A stretch of DNA of 53,743 nt from Candidatus Eisenbacteria bacterium (GCA_016867715.1 VGIW01000013.1:1-53743); one strand, 5' to 3'. Shown: positions 20,116 to 24,958, counted from the stretch's first letter. The notes: a model not told the origin generated them from the sequence alone. Program-made: numbers and translations.

Positions 20116-20739
20116 ATGACGCATCGCAAACGGAACATTCTCATCACGCTGGTCTTGGTGCTTCCGGCAGTTCTCCTCTTGGCCTTCGGCCGCGAGGCGC
20201 CGCCCGTTCGCGCCGACCAGGTCGAGCTTCACCTGGAGCTCGTCCCAGAACCCGGAAAGACCACGCAGGGGATTCCAGGGAACTGCACCACCTGGCACGA
20301 GATCTACCCCGCCTACTGCACACCGCACCACCAGAGCGGATACGAAGACAACGGCGACGGCGAGGTCTCTCCCTGCGACATCATCGAGCTGAATGGGATC
20401 CGGTACCACATCATCTGGGCCGGGCCGACCTACTGGCTGAATTGCTCCGGCTTCGAAACCGCGCTCGAGCCGATCGACCCGCGGCCCGGGAACCCGACCT
20501 GCGAGATCTGGCACACGATCTATCCGCCGTCCCAGTATTGTCAGGAGTCGCACGTCGACAATTGGCAGGACAACGGAGACGGCGTGGTCTCGGCCTGCGA
20601 TTATGTATGGATCAGCGGCCACCCTTGCCACATCGTCGATGTCCGTCTCAACATCACGGTCGTCCCCGACGGCGGCGGGACCGCGACCGAGCAGGGATCC
20701 TGGGGGAAGGTGAAGGGGCTCTTCCGCAAGGTCCTTTAG
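20116..20739 (+). CDS. Exported two-module Cys/His protein with dockerin-like loops, paralogue 1
   Basis: I do not recognise this family. The 207-residue protein begins with a basic stretch and a hydrophobic segment (residues 7-24) ending PVRA, probably a signal peptide. Module 1 (residues 54-107) has C57, W60-H61, C68, H71-H72 and the loop E77-DNGDGEVSPC-D88, then GIRYHIIWAGPTYW. Module 2 (126-183) has C129, W132-H133, C142, H146 and the loop Q151-DNGDGVVSAC-D162, then CHI. The loops match a calcium-binding dockerin/EF-hand loop except at position 1, and each ends in Cys-Asp. The tail SWGKVKGLFRKVL is shared by all three paralogues. A metal-binding extracytoplasmic role is inferred. GGAGG lies 9 bases before the ATG. 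Confidence 0.75.
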   Translation: MTHRKRNILITLVLVLPAVLLLAFGREAPPVRADQVELHLELVPEPGKTTQGIPGNCTTWHEIYPAYCTPHHQSGYEDNGDGEVSPCDIIELNGIRYHIIWAGPTYWLNCSGFETALEPIDPRPGNPTCEIWHTIYPPSQYCQESHVDNWQDNGDGVVSACDYVWISGHPCHIVDVRLNITVVPDGGGTATEQGSWGKVKGLFRKVL

Positions 20740-20761
20740 ACCTATTGGGTTCACATGAGAA

Positions 20762-20789
20762 GCCCGTCCGGCTCTCGGGCCGGGCGGGC
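20762..20789 (+). terminator. Hairpin terminator after tandem paralogue 1
   Basis: A 10-bp GC-rich stem with one G-T pair (GCCCGTCCGG with CCGGGCGGGC) and an 8-base loop is followed by CTACTTTCGTCTT, a loose T-rich tail. It separates paralogue 1 from paralogue 2, suggesting separate transcripts. Confidence 0.5.
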
Positions 20790-20800
20790 CTACTTTCGTC

Positions 20801-20830
20801 TTGACGAGCGCGCTCGTAGGGGCGTATCGA
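20801..20830 (+). promoter_or_regulatory. Possible promoter for tandem paralogue 2
   Basis: TTGACG (20801-20806) and TATCGA (20825-20830) are 18 bases apart, directly after the terminator hairpin and about 140 bases before the next ATG. The -10 box is weak. Confidence 0.35.
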
Positions 20831-20969
20831 GAGAGACGGAAAAGGGAAGAACGCGCATCTGCCGCCAGTCGATCCCGGCGGAGAGCTCTCCTCGGGTCGA
20901 TCGGCCGCATTCCGCGTGTAACGGGGCAATCGGGAGAGAGAGAACGGACTCCCGGGAAGGAGGTCGTCG

Positions 20970-21593
20970 ATGAAGCAGAAGAAACGCCCGTTCTTCTTCG
21001 CGCTCGCCGCGGGTCTTCTCGCGATTCTGCTCGTCCTCGCGATCGGCGCGAACCGCCCGGAGGCGCGGGCGCCGGTGGGCGAGCTCTACTTGGAGCTCCT
21101 CGTGACGAAGGGAGGACCGCCCGGCTACGCAATCCCGCCCAACTGCTCGGTCTGGCGCGAGATCCACCCGAATCCCGGAACTCTCCGCCATCAGAGCAGG
21201 TTCGACGACAACAGCGACGGTCTTCTGTCCCCCTGCGACATCATCTACCTCGATCAGCTTGCTTATCACGTCAAGTGGGTCGGCCCGACCTACTGGGTGA
21301 GGCGTCTGCAAGAGCAGGTCGCCCTCGAGCCGGAGATCCAGCCGACCGGAGAGAACCCGACGTGCGAGACGTGGCACGAGGTCTATCCGTTCTTCTGCAC
21401 GCCGCATCACATCGATGCGTGGGAGGACAATCAGGACGGGGTCTTGAGCGTCTGCGATATCGTCTGGATGAACGAGGTCCCTTGCCACATCGAGCGGATC
21501 GAGCTGAACATCACCGCCGAGCCTCTCCCGTCGGGGACCGAACAGGAATCGTGGGGAGGGATCAAGAACCTCTTTCGAAGGGTCTTTCGCTGA
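20970..21593 (+). CDS. Exported two-module Cys/His protein with dockerin-like loops, paralogue 2
   Basis: This is the same unrecognised family as the genes on either side (207 residues). A signal peptide (KKRPFFFALAAGLLAILLVL, ending EARA) precedes the modules. Module 1 keeps C-x2-W (NCSVW), the loop D-DNSDGLLSPC-D and GPTYW, but has lost the second Cys and one His of the pair (NPGTLRHQ in place of YCTPHH). Module 2 is complete (TCETWHEVYPFFCTPHH, loop E-DNQDGVLSVC-D). The tail is SWGGIKNLFRRVF. This is the most diverged member, and the loss of module 1 ligands hints at specialisation or decay of one site. The ATG follows GGGAAGGAGG, a strong ribosome binding site. Confidence 0.75.
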   Translation: MKQKKRPFFFALAAGLLAILLVLAIGANRPEARAPVGELYLELLVTKGGPPGYAIPPNCSVWREIHPNPGTLRHQSRFDDNSDGLLSPCDIIYLDQLAYHVKWVGPTYWVRRLQEQVALEPEIQPTGENPTCETWHEVYPFFCTPHHIDAWEDNQDGVLSVCDIVWMNEVPCHIERIELNITAEPLPSGTEQESWGGIKNLFRRVFR

Positions 21594-22020
21594 AGCGGAT
21601 CCCCGGTCCGCGGTCGGGCGCCGGAGTTTCGTCCCGGCTCCGAGCGGATCCCGCGCCGGGCCGGGAGTCGGGCCCATCGGGTAGCCGGGCTGTCCGGACC
21701 ACAACCTTCTTATTTGCATTCGGTTACACGCCGGGTCTTCCCGCGGGAGCTGCGGAAAATCGGCTTGCCGCCTTCCTTTGCGGATGCTACGTTGATGCTG
21801 CGGCTGGAACCTCACGCAAGGTGAGGGTCCGGTGCGTGCCGGCCGAACCGGTGCCTCCCACCTAACGACAGCCTGCCGATCCAGCTTCGAGGGTGGTCGC
21901 CGAGTTCCGCGAGGTCGGCCGCGTGTGCGGGAACGGAGCGCGGCGCTCTCCGATCCGCTCGGGCGGCCTCTCCGCGGCAGGGCCGGCGGGACATTCAACC
22001 AGGCAGATGGAGGGAATACC
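21594..22020 (+). other. Intergenic leader before tandem paralogue 3
   Basis: This 427-base gap holds no supported gene. After a possible promoter (21765-21793), a predicted leader of about 220 bases contains a GNRA-like hairpin (CCTCAC, GCAAG, GTGAGG; 21811-21827) and further GC-rich pairable segments (CCGGTGCGTGCCGG, ACCGGTGC). I could not match it to a known riboswitch class. Confidence 0.4.
21765..21793 (+). promoter_or_regulatory. Possible promoter for tandem paralogue 3
   Basis: TTGCCG (21765-21770) and TACGTT (21788-21793) are 17 bases apart, upstream of the long structured leader. Both boxes deviate from consensus by two positions. Confidence 0.35.
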
Positions 22021-22617
22021 ATGAAGCGTAGGTACCTGATCGTTCCGCTGATCGTGCTCCTCTTCCCGATCGCGCTCTTCCTCGCGACCGGAAGGGAGAT
22101 GAACCCCGTGCGGGCAACACCGACGGAGATGCACCTCGACCTCGAGGTGGGCGGCGAGTTGCTCCAAGGAATTCCGGGGGACTGCGCCACCTGGCACGAG
22201 CTCTATCCGAACTACTGCATCCCCCACCACCAGGACGCGTACCAAGACAACGGGGACGGCGTGGTCTCGGTCTGCGATTACATCATCCTCGACGGAATCC
22301 GGTACCACATCATCTGGGTCGGGCCGACCTACTTCACCGACGACGGCCATGTGTGGGAGCCGGTCGGCGATCCGAGCGGCAGCCCGATCTGTCAAGACTG
22401 GCACATGGTCTACCCGGTCTACTGCCACGTCGCCCACGTCGATGACTGGGACGACAACTACGACGGCGTCCTAGGCGATTGCGACCACGTGCTGATCGAC
22501 GGCTCGTGGGTCCACATCGATCGGGTCGGTCTCGACATCATCGTGGTGCCGGAGCCGACGGGCACGGAGGAGAGCACCTGGGGGCAGGTGAAGAAGCTGT
22601 TCCGCGATCTCTTCTAG
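22021..22617 (+). CDS. Exported two-module Cys/His protein with dockerin-like loops, paralogue 3
   Basis: This is the third member of the unrecognised family, 198 residues. Its signal peptide (MKRRYLIVPLIVLLFPIALF, ending PVRA) and the following EMHLDLEV match paralogue 1 (VELHLELV). Module 1 is nearly identical to that of paralogue 1: DCATWHELYPNYCIPHH, loop Q-DNGDGVVSVC-D, GIRYHIIWVGPTYF. Module 2 reads ICQDWHMVYPVYCHVAHVD, loop D-DNYDGVLGDC-D, VHI. The tail is TWGQVKKLFRDLF. Paralogues 1 and 3 are closer to each other than to the middle copy. Extracytoplasmic metal binding is inferred from the loop and the Cys/His pattern. The ribosome binding site is a GGAGG 8 bases upstream. Confidence 0.75.
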   Translation: MKRRYLIVPLIVLLFPIALFLATGREMNPVRATPTEMHLDLEVGGELLQGIPGDCATWHELYPNYCIPHHQDAYQDNGDGVVSVCDYIILDGIRYHIIWVGPTYFTDDGHVWEPVGDPSGSPICQDWHMVYPVYCHVAHVDDWDDNYDGVLGDCDHVLIDGSWVHIDRVGLDIIVVPEPTGTEESTWGQVKKLFRDLF

Positions 22618-22639
22618 TCGGACAAGACGCGCGCGTTTT

Positions 22640-22667
22640 GCCGCCCGGTCAGGGCCGACCGGGCGGC
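22640..22667. terminator. Bidirectional hairpin terminator
   Basis: A perfect 11-bp stem (GCCGCCCGGTC with GACCGGGCGGC) with a 6-base loop is followed by GTTCTTTCT on the plus strand. On the minus strand it is followed by CAAAACGC. It lies between the convergent paralogue 3 and the last gene of the ccm operon. Confidence 0.65.
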
Positions 22668-22674
22668 GTTCTTT

Positions 22675-24003
22675 CTACTTGAACTTCCCTTCCACGGAAA
22701 AGCCGCGCTCCTTCCACTCCCGAATCCCTCCGCGGAACCAGAGAAGCTCGCGGAAACCGGCGCGCGCAGCCCACGTGGCGCACTGCCGGCTCCGGATGCA
22801 GTCCTCTCCGTAGCAGTAGGTCGCGAGCGGGGTCGCCGCGCGGTCGAGACCAGGCCGCGCCCTTTCCAGATACGCGTCGAGGGAATCGGCGAAAAGATGG
22901 GAAGCGAGGCAATCCGCCCCCGGAATGTGGTTGATCTCGTAGTCGCGGTCATTCCGCACGTCGAGAAGAAGAAGGTCGTCCCGCGGTTCTCCGCGCGCGC
23001 GATCTCTCCTCTTCAGCCGCTCCCGGATCTCCTTCGCGTCGACGATCCGGACGACCGGGAGGGCGTCGTCCGCGGCCCATTCCGCGTAGCCTCCCGGGAA
23101 CCAGCGCACCTTCTCGATCCCCGCCATCCGGAGAAGAAGATACGCGAGCGCGCCCCGGCCGCTCATCCCGTCGTCGGCGAGAAGGATCTCCGACTCGAGA
23201 TCGATCCGGGTCGCCGGCCGCGGTCCGACCTCCGCGAAGACGGAGCGGATCTCGGGGCCGGGAAGAAACGTCCCGTCCTTCCGGATCACCGTCCGCGGAT
23301 CGAACGGCAGCGCGTGCGGGATGTGTCCCGGACGGAGATCCTTCGCGTGTGAACGATCCTTCCCCTCCCAGGAGACCGTATCCCGAAGATCGATCACCTC
23401 GAAGCCGTCGGTCCCGTAGCGTTCGCGCAGATAGTCGAGCGTCGCCAGACGCGTGGAGTCGAGCTCCGAGACGCGTTCGAGCTCGGGAACCACAGCCCCC
23501 CGCGAGACGCTTCCTCCCGCCTCGACCCACGATTCGTATCCCCCGTCGAGGAAGAGAACGCCGTCGCGCCCCGCGAGCTCGAGAAGCCAGAAGAGGCGGG
23601 CCGGTGCCGCGGGATCCTCCCGGGTGCCGGAGCAGACGATCTTCCCTCCGCCCGCGCGCGGAAGGCGGAGCGGGCCGGCCGCGGCGAGAGCGGCGGCGGC
23701 CGTCCCGGTAGGAACGGACAGCGCTCCCGGGATGTGCCCCTCCTCGAAGCCCGAGGCCCGTGCGTCGAAGACCGCGACCTCCTCGAGATGATCGCGGAGC
23801 CATGCCGCGTCGACCGCGATCTCCGGAAAGACCGGGGGCTTCGTCTCCTTCTTTGCGAGCCACGGGGGCCATTGCGCGGCGAGCGGAGAAGCCGCCGCGA
23901 AAGCCGCGAGAAGAACTCCCGCCGCGATTCGGCCGGCGCGCCGGGCGCGATGCCGCAGGCCGGAACCGCAGGGCCTTTTTTGTTCATAAATGAAGCGTTT
24001 CAA
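22675..24003 (-). CDS. Exported triple-rhodanese-domain protein ending the ccm operon
   Basis: This protein of about 442 residues has a hydrophobic export segment (GRIAAGVLLAAFAAASPLAA, about residues 26-45) and three rhodanese domains. Domain 1 has the loop CSGTRED after GKIV. Domain 2 has DDGMSGRG, with no Cys at the active position, so it is probably structural. Domain 3 has CYGEDCIRSR, with an intact loop plus a second Cys. Rhodaneses transfer sulphane sulphur; in a ccm operon a periplasmic version could supply or sort sulphur or thiol groups for apocytochromes, but this is inference. The TTG at 24001-24003 overlaps the ccmD stop (TTGA) and follows GGAGG. No in-frame ATG precedes the hydrophobic segment. 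Confidence 0.78.
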   Translation of the reverse strand: MKRFIYEQKRPCGSGLRHRARRAGRIAAGVLLAAFAAASPLAAQWPPWLAKKETKPPVFPEIAVDAAWLRDHLEEVAVFDARASGFEEGHIPGALSVPTGTAAAALAAAGPLRLPRAGGGKIVCSGTREDPAAPARLFWLLELAGRDGVLFLDGGYESWVEAGGSVSRGAVVPELERVSELDSTRLATLDYLRERYGTDGFEVIDLRDTVSWEGKDRSHAKDLRPGHIPHALPFDPRTVIRKDGTFLPGPEIRSVFAEVGPRPATRIDLESEILLADDGMSGRGALAYLLLRMAGIEKVRWFPGGYAEWAADDALPVVRIVDAKEIRERLKRRDRARGEPRDDLLLLDVRNDRDYEINHIPGADCLASHLFADSLDAYLERARPGLDRAATPLATYCYGEDCIRSRQCATWAARAGFRELLWFRGGIREWKERGFSVEGKFK

Positions 24004-24260
24004 CCCCGCTCCTCCTCCATACGGGCGAGGATCTTCTCGAGCCGGCGCTGTCCGCGATCGACCACGAGAAGATGGATCCAGATCGCGGCCCACGTGAGAA
24101 CGAAAGCGGAGAAGAGGAAAGAGACGTTGACCGGCTTCCGCTCCGTGCGCCACTCGCGCGGAGGCTTCTCCGCAGGCGTCTCGGCCGGCGCGCCCGCAGC
24201 CGGAGAGAAGCACCAAAGAACGAGCAGGAAGAGCGCGAACCGCGCCGAACGACGGATCAT
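24000..24260 (-). CDS. ccmD: CcmD-like small membrane protein
   Basis: This 86-residue protein has an N-terminal signal-like segment (residues 7-24) and a second hydrophobic helix (FLFSAFVLTWAAIWIHLLVV, about residues 48-67), followed by a charged helix (QRRLEKILARMEEER). Position directly after ccmC with an ATGA overlap, one central helix and a charged C-terminal helix fit CcmD. CcmD assists release of haem-loaded CcmE from the CcmABC complex. It is longer than the Escherichia coli protein because of the extra N-terminal segment. Sequence conservation in this family is low, so the call rests mostly on context. Confidence 0.65.
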   Translation of the reverse strand: MIRRSARFALFLLVLWCFSPAAGAPAETPAEKPPREWRTERKPVNVSFLFSAFVLTWAAIWIHLLVVDRGQRRLEKILARMEEERG

Positions 24261-24958
24261 AGCGACCGTCTCCTTTCGTCGAGCAACGCCTCGGCGCGCC
24301 CCTCCGCCGCGCGGAGTCGCATGCGAAGGCGGAGAAGCACGACGAAGAGAAGGGTGAACACGGCGAGGGAGTAGAAAAACGCGGCGCGCATTCTCGGATC
24401 GAGACCCGATCCTTCTCCGCCCGCGAAGACGGGCGAAGGATGTTGCGTCCGCCACCAGCGAATCGAGAGATAGACGATCGGGACGTCGAGAAACCCGACG
24501 ATCCCGAGCACCGCGGAGAGGGTCGCCCGCCGCGCCGCATCCGGCACGTACGAACGGAGAAGGAGATAACCGATGTAGAGGAACCAGAGCACGAGCGTCG
24601 AGGTGAGGCGCGCGTCCCACGTCCACCAGATCCCCCACACCGGTTTCGCCCAGATCGGCCCGGTTGCGAGAACGAGCGTGCAGAAGAGAACGCCGACCGC
24701 CGCCGATGCTTCCGCGAGACGGTCGTACGAAGCGCGCCGCGAGGCGAGATACGCGATCGAGGCGGCGAACACGACGAAGAAGGCGAGGAACGCCACCCAC
24801 GCCGCGGGAACGTGGATGTAAAAGATCTTCTGGACGAGACCCATCGTCCGCTCAACGGGGGCGTGGTAGAAGATCAGGAAGAGGTTCAAGACCATCGCCG
24901 GGCCGACGAGGAGGATCAACCCGCGATCGATCCGGTTTCGGGCACCGTGCATGTTCAT
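24257..24958 (-). CDS. ccmC: Haem exporter/handling protein CcmC
   Basis: This 233-residue protein with six membrane helices carries the tryptophan-rich haem-handling motif WGIWWTWDARLTS and flanking His residues (FYIHVPAAW). CcmC presents haem to CcmE on the outer face of the inner membrane. The ATG overlaps the ccmB stop (ATGA). The order ccmA-ccmB-ccmC-ccmD is the classical one. Its length is typical for the family. Confidence 0.93.
   Translation of the reverse strand: MNMHGARNRIDRGLILLVGPAMVLNLFLIFYHAPVERTMGLVQKIFYIHVPAAWVAFLAFFVVFAASIAYLASRRASYDRLAEASAAVGVLFCTLVLATGPIWAKPVWGIWWTWDARLTSTLVLWFLYIGYLLLRSYVPDAARRATLSAVLGIVGFLDVPIVYLSIRWWRTQHPSPVFAGGEGSGLDPRMRAAFFYSLAVFTLLFVVLLRLRMRLRAAEGRAEALLDERRRSL

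Follow-up and report, generated by a model that had tools for sequence, protein, structure and literature searches.

Three adjacent genes in the window, which is the whole 53,743-nucleotide stretch of DNA analysed here, encode predicted Sec-exported proteins of a family not previously described, and they share a short C-terminal tag, W-G-x-[VI]-K-x-L-[FY]-R, with unrelated proteins encoded across the same genome. On balance, their sequences lead us to favour somewhat the reading that the triplet comprises Sec-exported surface proteins, stabilised by calcium and probably by metal, which are sorted by means of the tag and are probably linked to type IX secretion (T9SS). A broader proposal, to which we give about even weight, is that this helical tag is an unrecognised sorting signal of several uncultured lineages, which operates alongside the T9SS domains already known, either through a receptor of its own or as a fourth T9SS class, and delivers the family with coupled Cys-His modules among other proteins.

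An exported gene triplet and its module family

The original prediction had described three homologous neighbours, and this was borne out on the + strand with exact coordinates (Table 1). When gene 1 was used as a query against its own 3.5 Mb assembly, gene 3 (E=7e-65) and gene 2 (E=1e-58) were recovered, which is similarity well past chance, and no further match was found in that assembly; in full-length alignment, genes 2 and 3 show 49-55% identity to gene 1. The signal peptides ending in (V/A)RA and the two modules per gene, as previously described, were likewise seen in all three genes; the signal peptides were judged by reading and a simple hydrophobicity test, not by a signal-peptide program. 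In the one same-genus genome that was compared, a MAG deposited as Gemmatimonadetes bacterium DeMMO4_6, the triplet is kept in the same gene order, the orthologues of genes 1, 2 and 3 show 81, 91 and 88% protein identity, respectively, and the differences fall mostly at third codon positions. The retention of the triplet together with these third-position changes indicates that genes 1-3 are under protein-level constraint.

Table 1 Features of the gene triplet, with positions counted from the first letter of the window.
Feature	Position	Strand	Description and basis
Gene 1 (P0002)	20116..20739	+	207 aa, two-module exported protein; open frame, GGAGG RBS-like sequence upstream, signal peptide, orthologue at 81%
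Gene 1 Sec signal peptide, PVRA end	20116..20214	+	hydrophobic segment and VRA, judged by reading
Gene 1 module 1	20278..20439	+	C1, H2, C2, H3, short calcium-type loop, C3, H4; module alignment
Gene 1 module 2	20494..20664	+	module alignment
Gene 1 tag TATEQGSWGKVKGLFRKVL	20680..20736	+	tag common to unrelated exported proteins
Weak terminator-like hairpin 3' of gene 1	20777..20791	+	no more than chance predicts
Gene 2 (P0001)	20970..21593	+	207 aa; module 1 without H2-C2 pair
Gene 2 Sec signal peptide, EARA end	20970..21071	+	judged by reading
Gene 2 module 1	21138..21299	+	H2 replaced by Arg, C2 by Gly
Gene 2 module 2	21357..21521	+	module alignment
Gene 2 tag SGTEQESWGGIKNLFRRVFR	21531..21590	+	tag common to unrelated exported proteins
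Gene 3 (P0003)	22021..22617	+	198 aa; sequence taken for structure prediction
Gene 3 Sec signal peptide, PVRA end	22021..22116	+	helix 7-23 in predicted model
Gene 3 module 1	22177..22338	+	module alignment and predicted structure
Gene 3 module 2	22384..22554	+	module alignment and predicted structure
Gene 3 tag TGTEESTWGQVKKLFRDLF	22558..22614	+	same tag elsewhere; helix 186-197 in model
Terminator-like hairpin 3' of gene 3	22639..22668	+	12 pairs, T-rich tail; longest stem in region

The flanks of the triplet hold aquaporin, QueF, rhodanese and cytochrome c maturation (Ccm) genes. Since the triplet has gaps of its own and a hairpin after gene 3, an operon link is not suggested; an operon with these neighbours was rejected, no functional link to the aquaporin, QueF, rhodanese or Ccm genes being seen. 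The total of terminator-like sites in the triplet region was no higher than in shuffled sequences. A protein with three rhodanese-domain stretches, encoded at 22675-24855 on the - strand, follows immediately downstream of the triplet and is convergent with gene 3.

The module is about 50 residues long and occurs in two copies in each triplet protein. The Cys/His pattern proposed for it is present, but its spacing had been given wrongly, and the modules actually follow C-x2-W-H-E-x-Y-P-x2-C-x3-H. In gene 2, module 1 has the sequence C-x2-W-R-E-I-H-P and lacks a second Cys, while module 2 of gene 1 carries a two-residue insertion. The claim that no named family has this combination of features held up in Pfam, NCBIfam, PDB sequence and fold searches, none of which returned a significant match. 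Specifically, the triplet proteins gave only chance-level matches in Pfam (among them Dockerin_1, discussed below) and no match in NCBIfam; a profile of 12 homologues reached at best E=0.25 against PDB sequences; and a Foldseek search with the gene 3 model reached at best E=0.17 in the PDB and 0.016 in BFVD (viral), with low TM-scores throughout. An IF5A-like match at the N terminus (Pfam E=0.09), which was also among the top Foldseek matches, was too weak for use, and an SH3-like barrel shape may be its source. The AlphaFold2 model of gene 3, made with 12 sequences, has a pLDDT of 81 overall and above 90 across most of residues 55-178, and shows all-beta modules followed by a low-confidence linker and a C-terminal helix (residues 186-197).

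The module family was found in 18 of 20 sampled genomes of one other phylum, in three of 47 sampled genomes of a phylum to which a MAG labelled Candidatus Eisenbacteria belongs, and in a further lineage (f135), making at least three other lineages altogether. Tandem pairs or triplets of family genes recur in other lineages, for instance as three consecutive genes in genome G075. Such repeated sets indicate that tandem growth is a habit of the family and not specific to this window, so the proposed expansion in place is supported here and extends elsewhere. The family also has a five-module member (L120:1587-3065, 493 aa), which carries the tag SSWGRIKSEFR.

Calcium-type loops and coupled Cys-His pairs

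A DN-x-DG loop with Cys at the penultimate position had been noticed in the triplet and is present in all three genes. Its register had to be revised: the residue taken as position 1, reported as E, D or Q, is not conserved and is E, D, V, Q, I, G, A, L or others among 86 module segments. Counted from the invariant Asp that follows to the last acid, the loop spans 11 residues in 74 of these segments and 12 in the other 12. The 12-residue loops occur as eight distinct variants, matching Dx[DN]xDGx[IVM]xxC[DE] (for example, DADGDGEVSQCD, DTNSDGQISPCD and DVDGDGNMSFCD), and in one 12-residue variant, DADGSGSVTPCD, Ser replaces the fifth-position Asp. Because these 12-mers match the Dx[DN]xDG consensus, the invariant Asp is loop position 1, which makes the usual loop shorter than that of an EF-hand by one residue; most modules have lost one residue after this Asp.

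In the gene 3 model, the loop joins strands 68-75 and 87-90, and a loop placed between beta strands is not helix-loop-helix. The longer variants resemble type I dockerins and EF-hands in having D, [DN], D-G, a hydrophobic residue at position 8 and D/E at position 12, whereas the module loops mostly have 11 residues, lie between strands and carry a Cys before the last acid. If the modules were divergent dockerins that attach to cohesin-bearing scaffolds, the DN-x-DG loop, its two copies per protein and the export of the proteins would be accounted for. We nevertheless consider this extremely improbable: the match to the type I dockerin profile (Dockerin_1, PF00404) spans 12 residues with E=0.16 and 12.6 bits versus a cut-off of 22.9, the loop mostly has 11 residues, and the gene 3 model, whose modules are all-beta and beta-loop-beta rather than loop-helix, contains neither the helix that follows the loop in dockerins nor their duplicated segments of about 22 residues. 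Similarly, the 12-residue EF-hand loop with an acid at position 1 is matched by the 12-residue minority but not by the other 74 segments. Membership of the dockerins or EF-hands was thus rejected on profile score, loop length and predicted fold. The calcium-type loop of the original prediction is supported by the eight 12-residue variants; its suggested dockerin/EF-hand kinship is not supported.

Excalibur is a case of a Dx[DN]xDG calcium loop outside the EF-hands, in which a Cys immediately precedes the last acid. Excalibur and other non-EF-hand Dx[DN]xDG loops share the linear motif of the modules but differ from them in flanking pattern and organisation, and the modules have no Pfam match. 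The Dx[DN]xDG motif itself occurs in several unrelated folds, including contexts other than EF-hands (PMC3123361). We propose that a predicted calcium ion would hold each module together, sitting in the shortened Dx[DN]xDG loop that links two strands.

The modules also contain six Cys/His positions (C1=55, H2=59, C2=66, H3=70, C3=85 and H4=96 in gene 3 numbering), which vary in pairs across 81 modules. Of these modules, 44 have C1 together with H3, 37 have neither, and none has just one of the two (p=6e-24); among 1176 column pairs, this one shows the strongest coupling once APC correction is applied. For H2-C2, the corresponding numbers are 72 both present, seven both absent and two mixed (p=1e-8), and for C3-H4, 78 both present and three both absent. 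These Fisher p-values assume independent modules, but the modules are related; repeated joint changes on a module tree are therefore the stronger argument. On a tree built with the Cys/His pair columns left out and with changes placed by parsimony, C1-H3 underwent about 11 changes, always joint, and H2-C2 about seven, of which five were joint. C3-H4 changed once on the tree, so its coupling has no independent support. The repeated gain and loss of C1-H3 and H2-C2 as units suggests that they are shared ligands, and the co-varying residues are probably ligands of one metal or otherwise bonded. A role in disulfides was considered and fits poorly, as there are three Cys per module and they are lost pairwise with His.

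In the original prediction, the Cys/His family was metal- or calcium-dependent and perhaps bound a redox cofactor. The first Cys is missing from 37 of the 81 family modules; metal dependence is plausible in view of the coupled pairs, whereas the redox cofactor found no support. A redox or catalytic centre, which would make the family an extracytoplasmic enzyme or electron carrier, would agree with the strong coupling of the Cys-His pairs, the export of the proteins and the cytochrome c maturation genes downstream of the triplet. However, pairs have disappeared independently from many modules that are otherwise retained, which is unlike an active site; the CxxCH heme motif was not seen in the module sequences; and the Ccm genes lie on the opposite strand, where co-transcription is not indicated. 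This reading appears improbable to us. In the structural reading that we prefer, metal ions would be bound at predicted sites through Cys-His pairs that come and go as units, and tandem duplication would generate a set of surface or repeat proteins differing in metal-site content. Separately, in tandem sets of another phylum, the second modules of L122, L119 and L149 have lost C3 and H4 jointly and show GD with YE or WR.

The C-terminal tag and its carriers

In the triplet, the tag takes the form T-x-[TV]-E-x-x-[ST]-W-G-x-[VI]-K-x-L-[FY]-R, followed by three or four residues, and the consensus of 31 distinct tagged ORFs in the same genome is T-[AGS]-[TVI]-E-x-x-[ST]-W-G-x-[VI]-K-x-L-[FY]-R. 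The tail (S/T)WGx(V/I)KxLFR had been listed as a trait of the triplet family; it is indeed present there, but it is not family-specific, as unrelated proteins genome-wide share it. The DNA pattern WGx[VI]KxxF/YR gave 35 matches in this genome against 0 in the reversed control, and the tag profile gave 53 matches. The tag lies at the stop or at most four residues before it in 76 of the 77 distinct tagged ORFs that were read and in 31 of 31 from the triplet's own genome, and every tag found in 18 sampled regions of other tag-rich groups is at most two residues from the stop.

The tagged proteins of this genome are otherwise unrelated, comprising right-handed beta helices, choice-of-anchor W and many proteins without a named domain, and most of them have a hydrophobic, signal-peptide-like N terminus by a simple test. 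In the triplet's family, all 43 proteins whose C terminus is intact are tagged, often with a longer helix. The choice-of-anchor W protein matches NF041928 with E=1.4e-49 over residues 9-196 of 217, and the tag follows immediately after the domain. Going by the meaning of the family name, this is the place of an expected anchor or sorting signal. Choice-of-anchor W is nevertheless the upstream domain, not the tag, and the triplet proteins have no NF041928 match. The open-access literature was searched for the tag letters, and also for any sorting signal of these lineages, and yielded nothing. Among the other tagged proteins of the genome are about seven Trp/Cys-rich exported paralogues of an unnamed family with the motif GFWWYW (L033, L038, L039, L040 and L046-L048). 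In another genus of the same family, genome G005 (C21:223729-226217) has five tag matches spaced by about 0.6 kb, which form a tandem array of small tagged genes.

Could the tag be an inherited remnant of an ancestral C-terminal domain and not a working signal? Some tagged proteins are paralogous (L033, L038-L040, L046-L048), as such descent would predict, but the tag also follows beta helices, choice-of-anchor W and many unrelated domains and stays C-terminal throughout. Moreover, W, G, K and R are invariant across 53 aligned tails, although this invariance alone is weak evidence because those residues were in the search pattern. We regard a remnant as very unlikely and continue to treat the tag as a candidate working signal.

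Tag distribution and a possible link to type IX secretion

All seven sampled genomes of the phylum to which the triplet's own genome belongs contain 9-41 tag-pattern matches, with 0 in the control. In a 386-genome sample, the tag-count distribution was sharply bimodal, with 14-60 matches in the family-level groups f26, f67, f70, f135, f159, f174 and f215 and 0-2 in the remainder; overall, eight sampled family-level groups including the triplet's own carry 9-94 tags per genome and other genomes 0-2. These counts rest on the strict DNA pattern or on a short 20-column profile, which counted 22-94 tagged frames in each of 18 tag-rich genomes, against 0-2 in each of 14 others. As this profile was built partly from genomes later counted with it, the evidence that is independent of it comes from the DNA pattern and its control, and from the division of the genomes into tag-rich and tag-poor. 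Two almost tag-free genomes (G007 and G080) each encode one small exported FN3-like protein (L098 and L099) ending in TWGSIKA(M/L)FR, and similar single tag-pattern matches occur in G013, G057, G161, G199, G221, G300, G330 and G350. Such a lone FN3-like tagged protein may be a conserved, early user of the tag, or may itself belong to the tag system.

SprA, the type IX translocon, is encoded in the triplet's own genome and in all 18 tag-rich genomes examined, which also encode dozens of type A T9SS tails. It is present as well in eight T9SS-positive genomes that encode one or two tagged proteins, while among the other six comparison genomes a SprA match is absent in five and weak in one. The T9SS signals known so far fall into types A, B and C, all of them folded beta domains; that of ChiA is about 100 residues long (PMC10202324), and a known T9SS signal domain forms a seven-stranded sandwich (PMC10994853). 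The type A C-terminal domain (TIGR04183/PF18962) resembles the tag in being C-terminal, in occurring on unrelated Sec-exported proteins, dozens per genome and in the same genomes, and in having a conserved lysine close to the C terminus. It differs as a folded beta-sandwich with 72 model positions, whereas the tag has about 16 residues and is predicted to be helical. No known sorting domain was found in the three triplet proteins or in 17 full-length tagged proteins outside the family, and neither set has a C-terminal TIGR04183 or PF18962 match.

In PEP-CTERM, LPXTG and GlyGly-CTERM-like tags, a transmembrane helix and then a basic end come after the motif. The present tag is similar to these in being a short C-terminal element on many unrelated exported proteins of one genome, but it has no hydrophobic segment and its motif stands at the stop or a few residues before it. 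The exosortase/sortase layout of motif, transmembrane helix and basic tail was not found, as the tag ends at most four residues from the stop.

We infer a sorting role from the C-terminal position of the tag, its recurrence on unrelated exported proteins and its co-occurrence with SprA. The link to T9SS is weaker than the sorting role, since genomes with few tags can encode SprA too. These data also bear on whether the tag is instead a self-contained surface or membrane anchor, unrelated to T9SS, with an amphipathic helix that inserts into the membrane or binds an S-layer or matrix protein. The helix predicted behind a low-confidence linker, the hydrophobic spacing around the invariant W, G, K and R, the lipoprotein-like character of one tagged protein (L027) and the nearly tag-free state of some T9SS-positive genomes would all suit an anchor. 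Nevertheless, SprA occurs in every tag-rich genome examined, and W-G-x-[VI]-K is stricter than membrane anchoring alone needs, so we consider an anchor of this kind possible but rather doubtful. Under the sorting reading that we favour, the Sec signal peptide would export the triplet proteins, and the C-terminal tag would act as a sorting signal, most likely read by the SprA translocon with its shuttles or by a receptor that works with T9SS; once read in this way, the proteins would be displayed at the surface of the cell or released into the medium.

The module family adds a case of a calcium-loop motif in a beta context and a case of Cys-His pairs evolving as units. The tag, if it serves as a sorting signal, raises the question of whether T9SS can accept a 16-residue helical signal in place of a folded beta domain, and it would provide an annotation handle that Pfam and NCBIfam do not offer. 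For several uncultured lineages, it would also delimit the set of proteins displayed at the surface or secreted, which numbers roughly 20-90 per genome.
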